From a virus, in IMG/VR virus record IMGVR_UViG_3300033148_001429, positions 1-46,986 of that record: 46,986 bases of DNA. One strand, given 5' to 3'. A program made the position numbers and the translations under genes. The notes below the pieces were generated by a model. It was not told the origin of the DNA. It saw only the letters and a list, made by a program, of their open reading frames with translations, and searched no databases. Of this stretch, positions 2,839-32,765 are shown piece after piece. Every line of letters begins with the position of its first letter. Within the stretch, counting starts at the first letter, position 1.

Positions 2839-3423
2839 ATGAAAGAACGGCTGGGAGAGATCAAGGACAGCGACACCCTGAAGGCATGTCCGTTTTGTGG
2901 TGGAGATAGCGTCTGGTTGGGCTCTGATTCTCCTGGCCACGAGATTCATTGTCGCGATTGTCACGCCACTCTTCGCTTTTGCCTCACGCCAGACAGTGCC
3001 ATCGCCGCTTGGAACAACTGCCCAATCGAAACCGAACTCATTGCGATGGTTGAGTCCTTGCTAATTGTGATGCCTGAGAAGCCATCCGTCGAACGCGTGA
3101 CGATACCGCTTCCGTATATCAACCGCGAAGAGGCTAAGGAGTATGCACTAAAAGCTCTATCAGAGCTGACTCCTAGGGGTAGTGAGTTCTTCGAGGCCCC
3201 TGTTGCCTGTGTCAACTTCATCCGCAGAACGCGAGACAATCTTCGAGTACAGCTCAAGAAGGAAATTCTGTGGCGCAAGAAAACCCGCGCTCTACTTGAA
3301 GAAATCCGCAACTTTCTCGCCACGTCCCAGCAGACGCCTGACGGGATGGAGACACATCGCGCCGAATCTGAGGGAATAGACCATTTGTTGTCTGGTGTTG
3401 TTGAGGCGCTTTGGGGTGAGTGA
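2839..3423 (+). CDS. Lar-like zinc-ribbon protein
   Basis: The start is well supported by AAGGAGG nine bases upstream. The N-terminus carries a zinc ribbon with C17-P-F-C20 and C38-R-D-C41, followed by AIAAWNN, the signature of the Lar family. In lambda-like prophages Lar reduces cleavage by host type I restriction enzymes. Here the ribbon is followed by about 140 further residues rich in charged helices with no recognised domain, so the protein is much longer than classical Lar (about 65 residues). The Lar-type ribbon is common in phage proteins of other roles, so an anti-restriction role is an inference. It overlaps the next gene's start, implying coupled translation. Confidence 0.7.
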   Translation: MKERLGEIKDSDTLKACPFCGGDSVWLGSDSPGHEIHCRDCHATLRFCLTPDSAIAAWNNCPIETELIAMVESLLIVMPEKPSVERVTIPLPYINREEAKEYALKALSELTPRGSEFFEAPVACVNFIRRTRDNLRVQLKKEILWRKKTRALLEEIRNFLATSQQTPDGMETHRAESEGIDHLLSGVVEALWGE

Positions 3424-3934: not shown

Positions 3935-4013
3935 TGCGCGTCCTAGTCAAGTGGTAAAGGGGTAATAGCCAAAAACGAGGCTAGAATAATATAATTATCT
4001 GAGGTGAGCAAAA

Positions 4014-4697
4014 GTGCTAGGATATTGGTTTGCGAAAGAGGATGGGCGAACGGAACACCTCAAGCATCCTGCGGTGGTTGGGAAAACGGATACATTCGAT
4101 GGTGAGCTTGTCCCTTGCCTGGCGGGGTTACATGCTAGCCCGACGCCGTTTGATGCTTTTCAATATGCTCCCGGGCCAATTCTGTGGATTGTTGACATCC
4201 CAGACGATGCAATTCCGCACGGTGAGCCTGTCAATAAGTATGTGGCGGCAAGCAGGACATATTTGTTCCGCCTTGATGTCTCAAAGATTATGCGGCAGTT
4301 TGCTGCGCAATGTGCATTAGATGTGTTCGACAAATGGGACCCACCGGATATCGTGAGAGAATATATTGAAGGTATGGCGAAGGGAGAAGACAAATCTTCT
4401 ATAAAGGGCAATGCGGCTGATACTGCATGGGCTGCTGCAACTGATGCTGGGGCTGCTGCGGTTGCTGCGTGGGCCGCTGCGGCTGCTGTAAGGGCAGCTG
4501 CGCGGGATACTGTGTGGGATGCTGCTGCGTGGAATGCTGCAAGGACGGCCTCGTGGGATACTGTTGCGTGGGGCGTTACGGATATTGCGCAGGCAGCTTC
4601 GTGGGCGGCTTCATGGGATGTTGCGTGTGCTGTGCAAAGGACTAACTTCAACAATATGATAGCTGATGCCTTAAAAGAAGCTGGGTGGAAGGAATAG
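4014..4697 (+). CDS. Ala/Trp-repeat protein, complete copy
   Basis: Starts at GTG 4014 with GAGGTGAG upstream. Residues about 1-125 form a globular head (GYWFAKEDGRTEHLKHP, LAGLHASPTPFDAFQYAPG, RTYLFRLDVSKIMRQFAAQC) matching what I recall of a widespread phage family of unknown function. Residues about 130-205 are a degenerate Ala/Trp repeat (AAWAAAAAVRAAARDTVW). The last 20 residues are shared with the copy at 2-454. The repeat here is less regular than in copy one. Cell location and function are unknown; the tract would form a long hydrophobic-faced helix. A third copy of the C-terminal end, grafted onto a methyltransferase fragment, lies at 6137-6184. Confidence 0.8.
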   Translation: MLGYWFAKEDGRTEHLKHPAVVGKTDTFDGELVPCLAGLHASPTPFDAFQYAPGPILWIVDIPDDAIPHGEPVNKYVAASRTYLFRLDVSKIMRQFAAQCALDVFDKWDPPDIVREYIEGMAKGEDKSSIKGNAADTAWAAATDAGAAAVAAWAAAAAVRAAARDTVWDAAAWNAARTASWDTVAWGVTDIAQAASWAASWDVACAVQRTNFNNMIADALKEAGWKE

Positions 4698-4754
4698 TGA
4701 CAAATGAACAATGGCGGCTGCGGCGTAGTAGCGTCGGGTGAGATATGATACTGG
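4641..4754 (+). repeat. 114-bp perfect direct repeat, copy 2
   Basis: Identical to 398-511 by eye. It spans the C-terminal codons of the Ala/Trp gene and the downstream 57 bases. Immediately downstream the two loci diverge completely, which places one duplication junction at the repeat's right edge. Confidence 0.9.
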
Positions 4755-4771
4755 GTGAGATATGATACTGG
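4736..4771 (+). repeat. 17-bp tandem duplication
   Basis: The unit gggtgagatatgatact occurs twice in direct succession, followed by gg. Copy one of the long repeat (around 494-511) has only a single unit. The duplication lies just before the gene at 4787. Confidence 0.85.
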
Positions 4772-4786
4772 TTTACAAAAAAGGAT

Positions 4787-5062
4787 ATGAAGATTTACGA
4801 AAATCTGGTAGAGTGCTATGTTCGATTAGGTGCGCGGATCGAGCGAGATAAGTACGTTCGATATTACGCGCCAATCTGGACTCTGAAGAAACGCGGGATG
4901 TTCAAATACAAATGGGCAAGGGTGCTGTATTACAGATCGATGAATCGCTTTTGGATAATGTTGCAATTTCTTCGGTGGCGATTAGATTGGTTGGTTCCAG
5001 TCAATCGCGAGAAACTATTAGATCGATCGAGGGAGATTGAACGTAGGAAGCAAGTGATATGA
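4787..5062 (+). CDS. Hypothetical basic protein, 91 residues
   Basis: ATG 4787 follows AAAAAAGGAT at close spacing. The product is strongly basic and aromatic (KWARVLYYRSMNRFWIMLQF), with a hydrophobic centre that could be a membrane-associated helix followed by an Arg/Lys/Glu-rich tail. No family recognised. Its stop overlaps the start of the methyltransferase fragment at 5059, as expected of an operon with the DNA-modification genes. Confidence 0.55.
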   Translation: MKIYENLVECYVRLGARIERDKYVRYYAPIWTLKKRGMFKYKWARVLYYRSMNRFWIMLQFLRWRLDWLVPVNREKLLDRSREIERRKQVI

Positions 5063-5142
5063 AATTCGGCAGTCTATTTTTTGGTATTGAAGGAGCGACC
5101 ATTACTACCCAGATCATAGAAGCGGGTAGAATCCCATCATGA
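5059..5142 (+). pseudogene. Cytosine-C5 methyltransferase N-terminal fragment, upstream copy
   Basis: The frame MKFGSLFFGIEGATITTQII ends after 27 codons. Its first residues match the start of C5 methyltransferases (MKFGSLFSGIGG, motif I), and the downstream fragment at 6068 starts almost identically at protein level. The SGIGG loop that binds S-adenosylmethionine is altered here (FGIEG). The stop overlaps the ATG of the intact methyltransferase. It may still act as a leader peptide coupling translation. Confidence 0.55.
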
Positions 5143-6071
5143 AACGCGAAATAATCTGCGGTGACGCCTTAGAGGTATTGAAGAGACTCCCCGATCAATC
5201 TATTCATTGCTGTGTGACGAGTCCGCCGTATTGGAGCTTAAGGGACTACGGGGTTGAGGGGCAGGTAGGGTTGGAGGAGTCGCCTGAGAGGTACGTTGAG
5301 TCGATTGTGGATGTGTTCAGGGAAGTGAAGAGGGTATTAAGGGATGAGGGAACAGTTTGGCTGAATCTTGGGGATAGCTATGCTGGTAGTGGTAGAATGG
5401 GAAGTTTTGTCGATAGCAAAGCAAAAAAGGGTATGAAAATAATTAAAGACTATCATCGAAATAAACCAATTGAGGGGTTGAAGCCCAAAGATCTTTGTGG
5501 CATTCCCTGGCGAGTAGCCTTTGCGCTTCAAGCAGACGGGTGGTGGTTGAGGAGTGACATTATTTGGTCGAAGCCGAATCCTATGCCAGAGAGTGTGAGG
5601 GACAGACCGACGAAGGCTCACGAGTACATCTTTCTGTTAAGCAAGTCAAAAAAGTATTACTACGACTATGAGGCAATAGCAGAGAGGTCTGTATCTGCTG
5701 GCGAAACACGAGGAGGTGGAGTTAAGTATTCTAATAGAGAAGTAGACAATGGAATCGGAGGCCACCACAATCTCGACAAATACGGGGTAACGCTACAATT
5801 CCGCAACAAGCGTGATGTCTGGACGGTAGCGACAAAGCCATTCAAGGAAGCCCATTTTGCAGTCTTCCCTCCAGATTTGATTCGTCCGTGCGTGTTGGCT
5901 GGCTGTCCTCCAGGTGGAATAGTGCTTGATCCATTCTTTGGTGCTGGCACCACGGGGCTTGTGGCGAAGCAAGAGAGGCGGGGATATATCGGGATCGAGT
6001 TGAATCCTGAGTACGTAGAGATGGCGAGGGCGCGGATACGGCGGGAGTGTCCGATGGAGAGGTTGATATGA
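5139..6071 (+). CDS. DNA methyltransferase, N4-cytosine/N6-adenine type (beta order)
   Basis: A 310-residue amino-methyltransferase. The catalytic motif IV TSPPYW is at residues 27-32. The S-adenosylmethionine motif DPFFGAGTTG is near residues 264-273, followed by GYIGIELNPEY. Motif IV before motif I is the beta-class order. The SPPYW form is typical of N4-cytosine enzymes, but N6-adenine enzymes also carry it. The middle region (about 100-240) is the target recognition part, so the recognition site cannot be read. No restriction partner is nearby, so it probably protects phage DNA from host restriction. It overlaps C5-methyltransferase fragments at both ends (5139-5142 and 6068-6071). Confidence 0.92.
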   Translation: MKREIICGDALEVLKRLPDQSIHCCVTSPPYWSLRDYGVEGQVGLEESPERYVESIVDVFREVKRVLRDEGTVWLNLGDSYAGSGRMGSFVDSKAKKGMKIIKDYHRNKPIEGLKPKDLCGIPWRVAFALQADGWWLRSDIIWSKPNPMPESVRDRPTKAHEYIFLLSKSKKYYYDYEAIAERSVSAGETRGGGVKYSNREVDNGIGGHHNLDKYGVTLQFRNKRDVWTVATKPFKEAHFAVFPPDLIRPCVLAGCPPGGIVLDPFFGAGTTGLVAKQERRGYIGIELNPEYVEMARARIRRECPMERLI

Positions 6072-26405: not shown

Positions 26406-29400
26406 TTATGCCTTGCCTTCTGCGGCTAATGTCCCATATCTATTTCCGCTTGCTCTACGATTAGCTTTCCACGTCATGCTATTGAATTCACGCTTGAAAG
26501 ATTCTGGGTCGGTTACGTTGGGGAGGATGAAGGTGTTGCCAGTTACGTAGGTATCTCTGCTACCGTAACTTTGCTGTTGCGCCGGGGTTAAAACTTGTTC
26601 TCCGGGCATGGCTCTAATGAGAACTTCTTGCCCTGGTATACCTTGTACTATTCCGCCGTTATGAAAAACCCCAAGCCTATCTAATATATAAGTTAGTAAT
26701 GCGCCGCCCGCTGCACCGGCTAGTGCTCCTACAGGAACACGAACTGGCCCAATAAGACCTGCTGCCAATGCGCCAACAAGCGCTCCAGTTGATATTGCAA
26801 GGGCATATATGATGCCTTTCTTCATCCCATCAATAGCTTTGGTAATATTATCGATTGCATTTGTGACTGAAGTAAAATCAAGCATTTGCCCAATAGCATT
26901 AATCCATCTATTAATTTCAGCTTTTAATTGTTCCCACGTTGGCAGATTATTGATTAGCCAGTTTCTGGCAACATAGATTGCTTCTATTATTTTGTCAAGC
27001 CAACCAAGAAGATTTGTAATCCATCCAGGGCCTTCTCTTATAATCCAGTCTATTCCAGCCTGAATTTTTAAGATCATATTGTCTAGCGTGAGGCCATTGC
27101 GCTCTAAGAAATCACCTATGCTGCGCAGAATAGAATCAGCCGCGCCCATAATTGCTGGGAGCCTTCCAGTTATCCAAGACCAAAGATCGCTAGCTTTATC
27201 GCGTACTGCAGTTAGAATGTCCGTCCAGCTTGAAATCCCGAATCCTTCAAGGAGATTGATGATTGCCTCTCCGAGTGCTTCTCCGAATGGTGCGGCCCAT
27301 GCTGGAATTTTTACTTCTTTATCTTCGCCAATAACTCTTTGCCCTTCTGCCGCAACATCCCAAGCCGCCCTAAGAGTTTTAAAGCCTGCTGGAATATTAA
27401 GAGATCCCATAGCTCCTTGTTCGCTATCAGCTCCTGGCATTCCAAGGATTTCACGAACATAACGAATTGCTGCAACCAATGGCCACAAGAACTCTCCGAG
27501 TAAATTTGAAATAGATTTCCAAACATTGCTAGATTCTTTTTGCAATTCACCGTAGGCATCGCTTTGGCTAATAAGGTTTTTAAATGCAGATACTACGCCA
27601 TCGATAACATTGATTAACATAGTCAGTCCGGCACTTATTAAATCTTGTCCTTCTTTGCCGATCATCTGGATTGCGCCAACAAATGAATTTAAAATTGTTT
27701 TGGCCAAAGTGCCAAAGAATCCAGACCCAAAAAGACCTCCTAATAAGTCTGCCGCAGATTTGAATGCTTGGATATAGACATTGAGAATTTCTTTTAATTC
27801 GGTAAGGCGTTCTTCTAGGGCAGTAGTGATGGTGTTAATGATTGTAACTAATAAAGAAAGCCCTGCATTTAACATGTCTCCGGATGCTGCATAGTTTGCT
27901 GCTTTAGCTAATCCGGCGACAAGATTTTTGATTCCTTCTGGGAGTATTTCAAATAGAGCAGTTGATAGTTCTTGAATATTTTCTGGTGCGAATTTAAGGA
28001 AGAATCCTTTAATTTTTGCCGCAACTTCAGTATCAAATAAACTAAGTATCTTATTGCCTAAATTCTTAAACTCGAAATTTTCAATCCAATCTTTCCAATT
28101 AATATCTCGTGGTGTTATCCCTTCTGCGGCAGCTCTCAAATTGATTAATGTTACTTCTGCTTCTTCAGTGGCCATTCCAAAGAACTTAAGATCTTCTATC
28201 AACTGCTCTTGTTCTGAGATGAGTTCTCTGGCTAGTTCGGCGCGAGTCTCTAAATTAAGACCATCTATTCCTTCGCGCAATTGATCCATTGAATAGATGA
28301 CAGTTGGAGAGAAGAATTCTTCTAGTTGTTTGGCGACCGTTTCAGACACATAGCCGAGATCAACCATTTGAGTAACGGCAGACATTAAATCGCCCCGCAT
28401 TCCAGAGATCAATCCAAGAACTTCAGATGCGTCTATTTCTAAGCCAGCACCAGCGGCTATTAGCTCGTCTTTCCTGGCTGCAATAACGTTGATGGCTTCA
28501 GCAGCACCCATCCAATCTCCACCAGTAATGGCATCGAGGATTGGATCTGCGAATTGCTGGCGGAAAGCTTCTTGGGCCAGAGATAACGCTTTGGCTGCTT
28601 CTGTAGCGGCTTCTCTAGATGCCTTATCAGCAGCGGCTTTTGCTTTATCTAGTTCTGCTTGAATCTCTTCCGGCGTCTTGCCGATCATAGTTGCAAGTTT
28701 AGCTAATTCTGCTTCTATACCGCTGGCTGCAACAAGATCACCAATTCGGTATGCCCCAGTTCTAGCGCCCTCAAGCACGGATCGGATAGACTCTACAGAT
28801 TGACCAGCCAACAGCATATCTTGAATGCTTAATTCTCCGCTCCCTGCCTTTGCAATTATATCAGCAACGGCTTGAACCGCCTCTTCGGCAGTAGCATATT
28901 GAAGTCCTGCTATAAATTGCTGGAATGCAGAGTTTGCCTGGCTAAGTGCTGGAATGAGTTCAATGATAGTATCTATAAGATATTGGAATCCAACTTCAAC
29001 GCCATCTACATTCTTTGTGAGGAGAATAGATGCACCAGTCAACATCTCGTATATCTTGATTAATGCATCAAGGGCTGTTGCTTGTTCGTATGATCCCTCT
29101 GCGGCATTGTTGAATGTGTCAATTAGATATTGGACTTGTATATCTAGTGACGGAACCGCTTCTTCAAAAAGAGTCTCTAGCCATGTAACTAACGCCTGCA
29201 TTGCAGGAACAGCTTCATCTTGAGCCAAAGTGGCAACTTTAAGTGTTTCTGTCCATGTTTCTAATCCGGCTTCAAGTTCGCTATAAATTTGAGTTGCACG
29301 GTCAATCGTTGGAGATCCAGTTTGTAATTCTTCAATTAGTTTTTGATATTCGGTAGCGGCACGGGCTGTTTCACCGCTAAATGTTTTAAGCGGAGCCATC

Positions 29401-32400
29401 AATTTGCTGAACGGGATTTCTTCGGCCGGTGGGAAGGAAATCAATGAACCAATATCTGCAAGATGTTGAATTTCGTCTGAAATAGAGCCGAATGCTCCAG
29501 TAGCAGTTGTTTCAACTTCAGAAAACGATGCTTGTAAGTTATCTAATGAGTCAGAAAATCCTTCAACATAAGCAGATGTTTCTCCTAGGTCTCTTATGGC
29601 TGCTGCAAAATTACGTAGGCCAATATCAGTATATTCCTCAAGAATACGGAACCCGCTTAAACCGGCTTGATTAAATTCTTCACTGGTCTCATAGAATCTA
29701 AGCAAAGCTGTCCGCATATTTTCTATCGAATCTTCTGTCTTCGCAAAGTCAGGATCTAGAGCGGCCATCTGTCCGGCAAGCCCTTCAAACCCTTTCCCAG
29801 GCGCAATCAATTCTGGCAATAGGTCAATGTTTAATCTGATTATTCTTTCTGCTTGAGCTACGCTTTCTGCTTCTATTGCGGCTGCTTTTCTAATTTCATG
29901 AATAATATATATTGTGAATGCTGCAGTTGCCATAACTCCAAGGCCAATAACTCCGCCAGCAACAGCTCCAATGCCTAATATGCTCCCTAGGATTGCCCCT
30001 CCTATGGCAGCCCCAAATACACTTTCGAGCGAACTCTTTAGAGCAAGTTTGGCTTCATCTTCGCCAGATGTTTCAAGCACAAGCTTAAAGTCAATGAGTC
30101 CTTTAACTGTTGCCGCAACACCACCAATGCCGAGTGCGCCAAGACCGAACCCCGCGAGCATAGAACCAGCACCAAGCCCATATGCCATTGCCCCAATTTT
30201 AGCTCCAATATTGGCAGCCCCAGCAGCACCCGTCGTTAGAGTTGTTAGAAGCATTTTGTTCACTGCAATTAGTGCTTTATAGAGTCCCCAAAATGCAACA
30301 GTTAATATGCTAATGCCAGATACTATAGCAAGAAATATTCCTCCGCCCATTTCGTTAAATACACTCATTACATGTGCTAATAGTTGTGAAATAATACTTA
30401 AAACTGTTAACAATGCCTTCAATGCAGGTATAAAGACTCTGCCAATCGTAACGCCTGCGTCTTGTATGGATGTTTTCAGAACCCCAAGTTGATATGCCCA
30501 TGATTCAGCCTGTTTGTTAAAGGCTTCTGTCGCTGTGCCTGCAGCGTTAGCCATTCGCGCGAGGTCTTTTCTGTATTCACCGGCAGCTGTGGTTGCAAGA
30601 GGAAGAACAGCAGTAACGGCACGAACGTTGGTGAACAAGTTCTCCATCTTCAGGGCATTCGCGTCCGCGTATTTTCCAATTGACTGAATAGCATTAGCGA
30701 ATCCTAGCGCTTCAATGAGGGCGCGGCCAGAATCAAACCCTAGTCCTCTAATAACTTCTGCTAGTTCTGCGCCGGGTCTAAGTGTTTGCATGAGAGTTTG
30801 GCGCAAACTCGTGATCGCCCAGTCCGTGGCAATTCCTTGTCTTGTAAGGGTGGCAATAGCAGCAGTCATTTCTGATATTGCTGCTCCGGCTGGAGCCGCC
30901 ACGCCCGCGAGGCGGCCAAATTGATGCGCCAGCTCAGACATAGTTGTATTGTGTGCTATTATATCAGAAGCAATGAAGTTCTGATATTCTGGCACAACTA
31001 AGTCATAGACATGCGCGGCATCAAGTTCTTCTATTTTTACTATTTTATCATATATATACTGCGATTCGATATCAATAGACTCAGAGAATATTCCAGGGCC
31101 TCTTCTTTTGCCATTAATAATCAAAGATATGCATTGCTGTGATAATCCATATTTTTTTGCAATTTCTTCTTGTGTGTAATCGCCAGAAGTATAGATTGCA
31201 CAAATCTCTTGAACTACATCAGAAGATACTTTAGAATTTGCATGATCCCGTCTTTCTTCAAATGGCCTATTAGCGGCTTCTTTTGCAAACTCTCTATCTA
31301 TTCCTATAAACTTTAGGAATCTTCGTATATCTTTACTTTTATTACATTCCCAAACCCAATATTTGTTATCGTTTTCTTTTATTAGACTGTTGATTATTTT
31401 TTCAGAATATTCTCTTTCTCTAACTCTGCCAACGATACCAAACTTAAGCATAAGATGATTAATTTGTCTTACAAGCGTTTCTGACTTTGACCCGTATCCT
31501 AATTTGTGGTTATATCCCCTGCCATTGTCTTCTCCTCTACATAGCCAACCATCCCCATTAAATAGCCAATGTAGAAGTTCCGCTACTGATTCTTTATCCC
31601 AAGTAAATACTTCTTCGGGAATGTGTTTATCTATCGAAACGTCGCGGTCTATTTTATGTTTGCGTAAAAAATTCATACATTTGTTCTTGTTTTTAGCGCC
31701 GTCCCCAACAATGCGTAAATGTGCGCAAGATTTGTTATTTACAACATTTATTGAGCATCCGAAATACTCAGCCCATTTTGATACTGCGCTATGATATTTT
31801 ATAGATGACACTTCAGGCATTTTACTTTTTCCAGTTCCTTCGGCAATCCAGAATCCAAGGAACCCGGCTTCTTCTTTCGGCACATGTTTTATCCCAAAGA
31901 AAGGCAAATGTGTTGGTACGGCAATTTTGTCGCCAACAGAAAGCTTGCTTACTTTTTTCCATCCATCTTCTGTTAAATATGGATGAGTCCAGGTAGTTTT
32001 GATTTCTCGACCAAGGCGTGTTGTTAATTTTACAATTGGTTTTACACCCTGATCAACCCATTCAGCATTGACCGGAACAAACTTCTTTCCGTCGAATGCA
32101 ACTACTTGTGCGCCGTCGCTGAGATTTTCTATCTTCTCTAGTCGCCCGTCACTCAAAAGTACAAGAGAACTACCTTCTAAGCACTTCCCATACTTGATCG
32201 TAGTGAAAAGCAAGTCATTTACATATGCTGTTTCAGCCGCTTCCATTCTCCAGGCATTGAGAACAGTCGTCATCATATCTGCTACATTGAATACATCAGA
32301 AAGTCCGGCGACAGCGCCCTTTATACTTTCTTCTAATATAAGAAAGGCATCTTTAGCATAAAACGTGGCGCTATAAATCTGGTACATGGCGCGAGATGCT

Positions 32401-32765
32401 TCAACGCCAGTAACATTGAATTGGCGAGCCAAATCTCTTATCTGACTGCCAAGAGCAACTAGCGCGCTCTTGTTCATATCCGTTAGAGTCCAGAGATTGT
32501 GTAATGCCTCTCCAAATTCTATGGCAGAGCGAGTGGCGTTACCAATTGCTTGCTTAAGTTCCTGGAATATTTTAACTAGACCTAAAATGGGCATTAATTG
32601 TTTAAATGTGCGCCACAAACCAGAGAAAGAAGTTGTTGCACTTCTTGCAGCTGCGGTTGCCGTTTTAACTTGTGCGCCCATACCAGCAAGGCCACCACGC
32701 AATTGATTTAACTGCGCAGTAGCCAGATTCTGTGCTCGAATTACAAGCAGTAGTTCTTGATTCAT
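26406..32765 (-). CDS. Tape measure protein interrupted by an intein, 2119 codons
   Basis: The extein N-part (1-194) and C-part (607-2119) form a 1707-residue tape measure protein. The junction region reads TTIKYGK | TTMSELAHQFGRLAGVAAPA, a conserved core of the tape measure family, followed by ATLTRQGI. Hydrophobic segments occur after residue about 780 (IFLAIVSGISILTVAFWGLY; AAIGGAILGSILGIGAVAGG) and near the C-terminus, which ends with PGEQVLTPAQQQSYGSRDTY. The protein sets tail length; at roughly 1.5 angstrom per residue it implies a tail near 250 nm. No clear ribosome binding site precedes ATG 32765. Intein splicing would be needed for assembly. Confidence 0.95.
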   Translation of the reverse strand: MNQELLLVIRAQNLATAQLNQLRGGLAGMGAQVKTATAAARSATTSFSGLWRTFKQLMPILGLVKIFQELKQAIGNATRSAIEFGEALHNLWTLTDMNKSALVALGSQIRDLARQFNVTGVEASRAMYQIYSATFYAKDAFLILEESIKGAVAGLSDVFNVADMMTTVLNAWRMEAAETAYVNDLLFTTIKYGKCLEGSSLVLLSDGRLEKIENLSDGAQVVAFDGKKFVPVNAEWVDQGVKPIVKLTTRLGREIKTTWTHPYLTEDGWKKVSKLSVGDKIAVPTHLPFFGIKHVPKEEAGFLGFWIAEGTGKSKMPEVSSIKYHSAVSKWAEYFGCSINVVNNKSCAHLRIVGDGAKNKNKCMNFLRKHKIDRDVSIDKHIPEEVFTWDKESVAELLHWLFNGDGWLCRGEDNGRGYNHKLGYGSKSETLVRQINHLMLKFGIVGRVREREYSEKIINSLIKENDNKYWVWECNKSKDIRRFLKFIGIDREFAKEAANRPFEERRDHANSKVSSDVVQEICAIYTSGDYTQEEIAKKYGLSQQCISLIINGKRRGPGIFSESIDIESQYIYDKIVKIEELDAAHVYDLVVPEYQNFIASDIIAHNTTMSELAHQFGRLAGVAAPAGAAISEMTAAIATLTRQGIATDWAITSLRQTLMQTLRPGAELAEVIRGLGFDSGRALIEALGFANAIQSIGKYADANALKMENLFTNVRAVTAVLPLATTAAGEYRKDLARMANAAGTATEAFNKQAESWAYQLGVLKTSIQDAGVTIGRVFIPALKALLTVLSIISQLLAHVMSVFNEMGGGIFLAIVSGISILTVAFWGLYKALIAVNKMLLTTLTTGAAGAANIGAKIGAMAYGLGAGSMLAGFGLGALGIGGVAATVKGLIDFKLVLETSGEDEAKLALKSSLESVFGAAIGGAILGSILGIGAVAGGVIGLGVMATAAFTIYIIHEIRKAAAIEAESVAQAERIIRLNIDLLPELIAPGKGFEGLAGQMAALDPDFAKTEDSIENMRTALLRFYETSEEFNQAGLSGFRILEEYTDIGLRNFAAAIRDLGETSAYVEGFSDSLDNLQASFSEVETTATGAFGSISDEIQHLADIGSLISFPPAEEIPFSKLMAPLKTFSGETARAATEYQKLIEELQTGSPTIDRATQIYSELEAGLETWTETLKVATLAQDEAVPAMQALVTWLETLFEEAVPSLDIQVQYLIDTFNNAAEGSYEQATALDALIKIYEMLTGASILLTKNVDGVEVGFQYLIDTIIELIPALSQANSAFQQFIAGLQYATAEEAVQAVADIIAKAGSGELSIQDMLLAGQSVESIRSVLEGARTGAYRIGDLVAASGIEAELAKLATMIGKTPEEIQAELDKAKAAADKASREAATEAAKALSLAQEAFRQQFADPILDAITGGDWMGAAEAINVIAARKDELIAAGAGLEIDASEVLGLISGMRGDLMSAVTQMVDLGYVSETVAKQLEEFFSPTVIYSMDQLREGIDGLNLETRAELARELISEQEQLIEDLKFFGMATEEAEVTLINLRAAAEGITPRDINWKDWIENFEFKNLGNKILSLFDTEVAAKIKGFFLKFAPENIQELSTALFEILPEGIKNLVAGLAKAANYAASGDMLNAGLSLLVTIINTITTALEERLTELKEILNVYIQAFKSAADLLGGLFGSGFFGTLAKTILNSFVGAIQMIGKEGQDLISAGLTMLINVIDGVVSAFKNLISQSDAYGELQKESSNVWKSISNLLGEFLWPLVAAIRYVREILGMPGADSEQGAMGSLNIPAGFKTLRAAWDVAAEGQRVIGEDKEVKIPAWAAPFGEALGEAIINLLEGFGISSWTDILTAVRDKASDLWSWITGRLPAIMGAADSILRSIGDFLERNGLTLDNMILKIQAGIDWIIREGPGWITNLLGWLDKIIEAIYVARNWLINNLPTWEQLKAEINRWINAIGQMLDFTSVTNAIDNITKAIDGMKKGIIYALAISTGALVGALAAGLIGPVRVPVGALAGAAGGALLTYILDRLGVFHNGGIVQGIPGQEVLIRAMPGEQVLTPAQQQSYGSRDTYVTGNTFILPNVTDPESFKREFNSMTWKANRRASGNRYGTLAAEGKA
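30948..32183 (-). mobile_element. Intein with LAGLIDADG homing endonuclease in the tape measure gene
   Basis: The insertion runs from Cys195 (CLEGSSLVLLSDGRLEKIEN, splicing block A) to Asn606 before Thr607 (VPEYQNFIASDIIAHN | T, blocks F and G with penultimate His). Block B is TWTHPYLTEDGW with the TxxH motif. Endonuclease helices are AGFLGFWIAEGTG (301-313) and LLHWLFNGDGWL (397-408). A helix-turn-helix, YTQEEIAKKYGLSQQCISLI at 530-549, probably helps target recognition. All splicing residues look intact, so it should be active: Cys1, His, Asn and an acceptor Thr. 412 residues. Confidence 0.95.

Follow-up and report, generated by a model that had tools for sequence, protein, structure and literature searches.

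Inteins and interrupted tape measure genes in phages

In the available parts of the published sources, inteins are described in the portal protein of mycobacteriophages (PMC5050341), in a phage minor head protein (PMC7468147) and in TerL of crAss-like phages (PMC7886860), and the persistence of inteins at conserved sites is explained (PMC2814812). The tape measure protein (TMP) gene is presented in the available part of another paper as frequently interrupted, that of ICP1 by an HNH endonuclease gene spliced at transcript level, so that the TMP was already known as a homing target by another route; the inteins named there are in nrdA (PMC10448857). A description of a TMP intein was not found in a search of mainly open-access main texts joining inteins and tape measure, nor in the available parts of PMC3868849, PMC3556154, PMC3706429, PMC7156551, PMC6293099, PMC10638138, PMC12403621, PMC6145125, PMC7468147, PMC10448857, PMC5050341, PMC9957025, PMC7765530, PMC7886860 and PMC2814812. 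The text of the mycobacteriophage intein survey PMC5050341 contains neither ‘tape’ nor ‘tail’.

The window considered here, the whole stretch of 46,986 nucleotides of IMG/VR record IMGVR_UViG_3300033148_001429, resembles ICP1 in carrying a selfish endonuclease in its TMP gene, but the ICP1 element is of the HNH type and is removed at the RNA level. The insert in the window is very probably an intein of the class-1 type that contains a LAGLIDADG homing endonuclease and is a member of a lineage of this TMP site; it would splice itself out and home into empty TMP sites. The features of the locus are as follows.

26406..32765, minus strand: TMP precursor, 2119 residues (1707 after predicted splicing); single open frame matching TIGR01760, PF10145 and PHROG tape-measure families
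32184..32765, minus strand: N-extein, residues 1–194, ending ..LLFTTIKYGK; PF10145 profile positions 3–87 at residues 108–191
30948..32183, minus strand: intein of 412 residues, C195 to N606; PF14890, PF14528, TIGR01445 and TIGR01443 matches, empty-site homologue L013, predicted fold
31893..32183, minus strand: N-terminal splicing (Hint) half with C1 and block B (T64, H67); TIGR01445, invariant in 11/11 same-site inteins
31284..31892, minus strand: LAGLIDADG homing endonuclease domain, intein residues about 98–300; PF14528, alignment and model, E115 and D211 invariant
31110..31223, minus strand: candidate helix-turn-helix module, intein residues 321–358; HTH_3 at 335–360 just under cut-off, model helices, gap in the other rows
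30948..31058, minus strand: C-terminal splicing half with blocks F and G, ending ..DIIAHN; TIGR01443, H411 and N412 invariant in 11/11
26406..30947, minus strand: C-extein from T607, TTMSELAHQF..; best TIGR01760 stretch at 606–801, L013 uninterrupted across the junction

Host gene, boundaries and anatomy of the intein

The 6.4-kb host gene, whose 2119 codons hold no internal stop, lies amid tail genes, with phrog_1887 and Phage_Tail_Tip downstream and phrog_290 upstream. Both exteins carried matches above cut-off to TIGR01760 tape_meas_TP901 (79.4 bits, cut-off 28.8, two stretches) and PF10145 PhageMin_Tail (48.1 bits, cut-off 33.2, two stretches), and the exteins also matched several PHROG tail-length tape-measure families. 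The host is, on these profile matches, a TP901-type tape measure protein, as an earlier note on this DNA had proposed. Elsewhere in the window, a DnaB helicase is found in two frames, 654–1595 (DnaB_C profile positions 1–124) and 1700–2014 (167–254), with an apparent frame break that is either real or assembly-derived; a restriction alleviation protein Lar domain lies at 2839–3423 (PF14354, 36.9 bits, cut-off 28.6), and an N6/N4 DNA methylase gene stands not far from it, at 5139–6071.

The earlier note had placed a complete intein at 30948–32183, and these coordinates were found to be correct to the base, by codon arithmetic (C195 at 32181–32183, N606 at 30948–30950) and by the edges of the two TIGR matches, TIGR01445 intein_Nterm beginning at intein residue 1 (38 bits, cut-off 24.5) and TIGR01443 intein_Cterm covering residues 391–412 (21.8 bits, cut-off 15.6). 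PF14890 Intein_splicing matched intein residues 8–412 (E 2.6e-21, 76.5 bits, cut-off 35.8) and PF14528 LAGLIDADG_3 residues 200–294 (E 2.3e-8, 34.6 bits, cut-off 22.5). In an alignment of the 11 full-length inteins from the same site, that of the window included, C1, T64 and H67 (block B TxxH), E115, D211, H411 and N412 were invariant (11/11), and Thr stood at +1 in every one of the 11 intein-bearing rows, as T607 in the window. The insert is, as far as its sequence tells, a class-1-type intein with intact signature residues.

The window N-extein was aligned with 13 other TMPs, and the boundaries were compared with an inteinless TMP. This homologue, L013 (contig 3300029258_001101), is 74% identical to the C-extein query across its first 163 residues and reads straight across K/T at the junction (LLFATIRYGK/TTMSELAHQFGRLAGVAAPAGA), so its flanks align without the insert. 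The PF10145 match of L013 is unbroken over profile positions 5–180, and the same profile is interrupted near position 87 in the window TMP; in the three other intein-bearing TP901-type TMPs that were scanned, the best PF10145 match lay in the C-extein, starting at profile positions 88–90.

The presence of an endonuclease inside the intein was borne out by the PF14528 match, by the invariance of E115 and D211 and by the fold described below. The proposal of two LAGLIDADG helices, FLGFWIAEG the first and LLHWLFNGDG the second, holds in the alignment, where the acidic residues E115 and D211 are invariant, and in the model, which has helices at 103–115 and 197–211, whereas the Pfam match covers one stretch only. 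The AlphaFold2 model of the intein, built on the 11-row alignment, had a mean pLDDT of 83.3, and intein-endonucleases headed the rankings of both VIA-align 2 and Foldseek (best Foldseek E 8.4e-21), which were in agreement. The best VIA-align 2 match was TliVMA (7qsu, Z 32.6, 314 residues aligned, 3.0 Å), followed by 7qss, 2cw7, PI-PfuI (1dq3) and PI-SceI (1vde), with Z values of 31.4, 28.6, 25.9 and 24.2, respectively. The Hint part was superposed on the Ssp DnaB intein (1mi8, Z 22.7, 1.2 Å, 131 residues). An intein-endonuclease fold can be predicted with confidence for the insert.

A helix-turn-helix had also been reported as an addition to the intein, and the closer comparison agreed. HTH_3 matched intein residues 335–360 just below its cut-off (E 9.6e-5, 22.8 bits, cut-off 23), and the model placed helices at 321–332, 338–345 and 349–358, with moderate confidence (10-residue block means of 64–86). 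A stretch of about 58 residues (around 309–378) had no counterpart in the 10 other full-length same-site inteins or in the free-standing gene described below, the module being thus found in 1/11 aligned inteins, that of the window. The same stretch resembles transcriptional regulator families and part of the HNH endonuclease family phrog_59 (E 1.1e-4). When intein residues 300–385 were searched with phmmer against all frames of at least 60 residues in the collected loci, only the window phage and its near-twin were retrieved. The module may add DNA contacts. Inspection by eye showed that some inteins of Chloroflexota genomes carry additional residues separating the nuclease from block F.

An intein lineage at one tape measure site

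In two scans, the intein was retrieved from 15 IMG/VR contigs, the near-twin of the window included, and stood at the same TMP site in all 15. The near-twin (L001, 3300033141_001667, 56.8 kb) encodes the same intein protein and matches the window at 99.94% identity across the 17.2 kb that were compared; the other 14 contigs hold 12 distinct inteins, one sequence being shared by L005, L006 and L009, and the inteins of L027 and L029 being cut by contig ends. The residues before the intein read FT(T/A/S)(V/I)(R/K)xG(K/Q), or FAAVQGGK in L024, and Thr follows it in every full-length case. Judged by these sequences, the inteins form a lineage that is specialised for a single conserved position in tape measure genes of the TP901 type, across quite different uncultured phages.

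Over the 55 pairs that the 11 full-length cases form, mean identity was 57% for the inteins and 42% for the exteins, with the intein the more alike in 48/55. Distant TMPs had inteins 43–61% alike and exteins only 26–33%, as for the window against L004 (49% and 28%, respectively). The reverse pattern was found when the window was compared with its closest TMP, L002 (52% for the intein, 72% for the extein), and, among others, with L016 (50% and 60%, respectively). The path lengths between the window and L002 were 1.89 for the inteins and 0.5 for the exteins, and those between the window and L004 were 1.86 and 4.59, respectively. Such unequal distances are not what one line of vertical descent with constant relative rates would give; they would be explained by transfer, by replacement or by rapid change in the copy of the window. 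Conflict between trees was considered as proof of horizontal transfer and set aside, since the intein and extein trees both place the window, L002 and L016 together (support 81/92 in the intein tree, unstarred and not full, and 98/98 in the extein tree); horizontal movement is therefore argued from the unequal distances and from the pair of occupied and empty alleles described below.

The GC fraction was 0.371 for the intein, 0.436 for the N-extein, 0.44 for the C-extein and 0.44 for the whole window, and in 400-base steps it was 0.33–0.41 for the intein and 0.41–0.51 for TMP stretches, so that the difference in composition is modest.

Occupied and empty sites

The alignment made with the C-extein query comprised 12 rows, 11 of them from intein-bearing TMPs, and the best 80 of 251 relatives were kept. 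The site was readable in 79 of these best 80, being uninterrupted in 72 and occupied by an intein in 7, counts that describe a biased set and not prevalence; four of the seven were close copies of the L004/L005 type. Among 58 non-redundant empty TMPs, G was found at −2 in 58/58, K at −1 in 56/58 and T at +1 in 57/58. The most conserved 10-residue stretches have their starts between +34 and +41, away from the insertion site, and because these columns hold the search patterns the conservation ranking is biased and the counts per position were used instead. With an insertion site so conserved, removal of the intein would presumably be needed for tail assembly.

The best pair of occupied and empty alleles was L022, which has the intein and is a copy of L007 with longer flanks, and L084, which is empty. 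Upstream, their flanks share 96.4% identity (2994 bp) and downstream 95.5% (3298 bp), with the 1026-bp intein cleanly inserted in L022. At the junction the two matches have 3 bases in common, so no target duplication is seen beyond those bases. Mismatches per 100 bp were 6, 2, 3 and 9 upstream and 2, 1, 8 and 11 downstream and, as divergence shows no smooth fall towards the site, no co-conversion tract is claimed.

Omega was determined by the Nei–Gojobori method (own script) for the single pair L004 and L005, which does not include the copy of the window. The values were 0.06 for the intein, 0.055 for its endonuclease part and 0.095 for its first splicing part, compared with 0.30 for the N-extein stretch and 0.10 for the C-extein stretch. 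This suggests that purifying selection keeps the nuclease working in the L004/L005 pair. The intein of the window is probably mobile.

A free-standing relative

A scan of genome contigs, with 18 candidate stretches, returned one locus, L030, an 11.7-kb contig of an Anaerolinea MAG (JACSRF010000162.1), which may belong to a phage and have entered the MAG by binning. It bears, at 4310–5413, a free-standing gene of 367 residues, 40% identical to the window intein and up to 50% identical to others. The gene lacks the N-terminal Cys, has Asn for the block B Thr and Val-Tyr-His, followed by a tail, for the terminal Ala-His-Asn, and retains E and D at the nuclease positions; we read it as an intein-derived endonuclease that would have lost splicing. 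It is preceded by an HNH gene (3951–4313), and its end lies 70 bases upstream of the first possible start of an adjoining uninterrupted TMP (TIGR01760, 78.3 bits), in which the site reads GGK/LTFEEL, with Leu at +1 instead of the usual Thr.

The free-standing gene, searched against viral contigs, matched 10 loci, all on contigs with an in-TMP intein, and no more free-standing relatives were retrieved there. Of 301 genomes of the L030 phylum, 37 gave hits with E values of 1e-20 or lower, L030 itself at 5.3e-125 and the next at 4.4e-45. The longest frame of 10 such loci was inspected; eight were not TMP-like by eye, and in L123 and L125 the frame was short and probably on the wrong strand. The same Anaerolinea MAG also contains a MutS-like protein, identified by eye (L113, 22–2973), with an intein-like insert after GPNMSGK.

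Tentatively, and with more doubt than confidence, the TMP homing lineage may be proposed to switch its form of life, from an intein at one site to a free-standing gene such as that of L030, next to a TMP that its Leu at +1 would perhaps make immune and unable to retake the intein. If so, the gene would serve as an exclusion weapon against phages that carry the usual TMP site; both its cutting and the resistance of the altered K/L site are here what we infer from the sequences.

Proposed mechanism and alternative explanations

Protein splicing proceeds by an acyl shift, transfer of the ester and cyclisation of Asn. The TMP would be translated as a 2119-residue precursor, in which the intein would fold and excise itself: C1 would undergo the N–S acyl shift, T+1 would accept the ester, and N412 would cyclise with the assistance of H411. 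The mature ruler would then have 1707 residues and be joined as IKYGK-TTMSEL. The endonuclease, released or still within the precursor, would recognise and cut the uninterrupted TMP site of co-infecting phages, and repair of the cut site from the intein-bearing copy would spread the element.

A decayed intein, its endonuclease or its splicing lost, in a phage that is defective or whose TMP does not function, was considered unlikely. The window intein has the longest branch of the intein tree (1.29, compared with 0.57 for L002, 0.37 for L016, 1.04 for L025 and 1.15 for L030), and the tree program, which raised no long-branch flags, flagged the odd letter make-up of the window row alone, so that the endonuclease could be decaying, though its catalytic acids are kept. 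The division of DnaB into two pieces in different frames also indicates that the phage or its assembly carries defects. Nevertheless, every splicing and nuclease signature residue is intact, the TMP is one open frame, and the near-twin, with the same intein protein on a contig 99.94% identical over 17.2 kb, indicates that the allele persists in an intact frame.

A tape measure must have the right length before the tube is assembled. An intein retained for its usefulness could gate late-phase tail assembly by conditional splicing, and the conserved insertion site accords with this, as does the conditional splicing reported for other inteins in the available parts of two sources (PMC6195587, PMC7360933). 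The proposal is nevertheless quite unlikely, given that the close relatives L013 and L084 lack the intein and that the empty TMPs, 72 of 79, predominate even if the set is biased.

A bacterial intein-like (BIL) or hedgehog-type Hint domain, which would cleave the TMP instead of splicing it, is very improbable. Weak matches to Vint and Hint, below their cut-offs, were obtained, and the fold search also retrieved BIL and hedgehog chains, but with lower Z values (17.2 to 19.5), endonuclease-bearing inteins being at the top of both fold lists; the Thr nucleophile at +1, the terminal His-Asn, the endonuclease domain and the insertion into a conserved core are features of inteins.

Interruption at the RNA level, by a group I intron or by a free-standing endonuclease gene, would have its precedent in the transcript-level splicing of the ICP1 TMP (PMC10448857, in its available part), but is scarcely credible for an insert that is in frame with both exteins, contains no stop and has protein-splicing motifs at both edges. 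The group I intron was rejected as a candidate, an Rfam search of the window having yielded 0 families at gathering score. A chimera of the TMP and an unrelated intein gene formed in assembly might be suspected from the IMG/VR-type record and the lower GC of the insert, but is hardly conceivable and was discarded, as the match to the near-twin, contig 3300033141_001667, extends through both junctions (99.95% over 11,236 bp) and the architecture recurs in 14 other contigs.

Comparison with known systems

The best model match of the whole intein (residues 1–412) was NCBIfam PRK07773 (E 3e-39), which points to the DnaB-type LAGLIDADG inteins (Ssp and Npu DnaB); these sit in a helicase, whereas the window intein sits in a structural tail protein. 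TliVMA, PI-PfuI and PI-SceI share the splicing and endonuclease fold, but are only 16–21% identical to the window intein in the fold alignments and belong to other host genes and organisms. The inteins of phage TerL, portal, minor head and helicase proteins (mycobacteriophages, Bacillus phage KLEB27-3, crAss-like phages, a cryoconite phage) are phage-borne like that of the window, some of them in virion proteins, but differ in host gene; among named phages the best long match was the TerL of Bacillus phage KLEB27-3 (25.6% identity, 97% of the query). In Bacteroides phage BS162P1, a 907-residue ‘hypothetical protein’ (L138, 2362–5085) matches the intein N- and C-terminal models above cut-off.

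Another TMP is Gordonia phage BearBQ gp17 (OR253908.1), with an intein that, like that of the window, carries a LAGLIDADG domain. This intein of 372 residues (L137, 4001–5116) is 26.3% identical to that of L004 and matches PF14890 (35.9 bits, cut-off 35.8), PF14528 (30.1, cut-off 22.5) and TIGR01443 (32.2, cut-off 15.6); gp17 is labelled in its record as ‘tape measure protein’ only, with the intein unlabelled. It differs from the window in TMP family (TMP_3) and in its site, WGGVNWGDC/SGAMS, which looks like a peptidase active-site motif. The window intein as query did not retrieve the BearBQ intein, for which the viral contigs yielded no relatives and the phage collection only the intein itself. 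Phage Birdsong has the TMP gene of BearBQ without the intein, the matching pieces having identities of 96.2% (2702 bp) and 97.7% (2501 bp). With BearBQ, a cultured phage, carrying a TMP intein, the window could not be said, as far as sequences go, to hold the first one. The remark in the earlier note that a tape measure gene is an unusual home stands as to the host, but the home is not unique, in view of the 14 other contigs with the intein at the same site, the BearBQ intein elsewhere and the other homing endonuclease genes that target the TMP.

The ruler of tail length thus joins the genes invaded by inteins, and tail length estimated from TMP gene length may be overstated by an intein of about 340–410 residues. 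The natural occupied and empty alleles, with about 96% flank identity, offer a test of neutrality for tail assembly, and the TMP site, the intein form and the free-standing form together make a compact system for the passage from an intein endonuclease to a stand-alone weapon. The kind of element and its mechanism are well known, while the TMP as host gene, the same-site lineage and the free-standing form look new.
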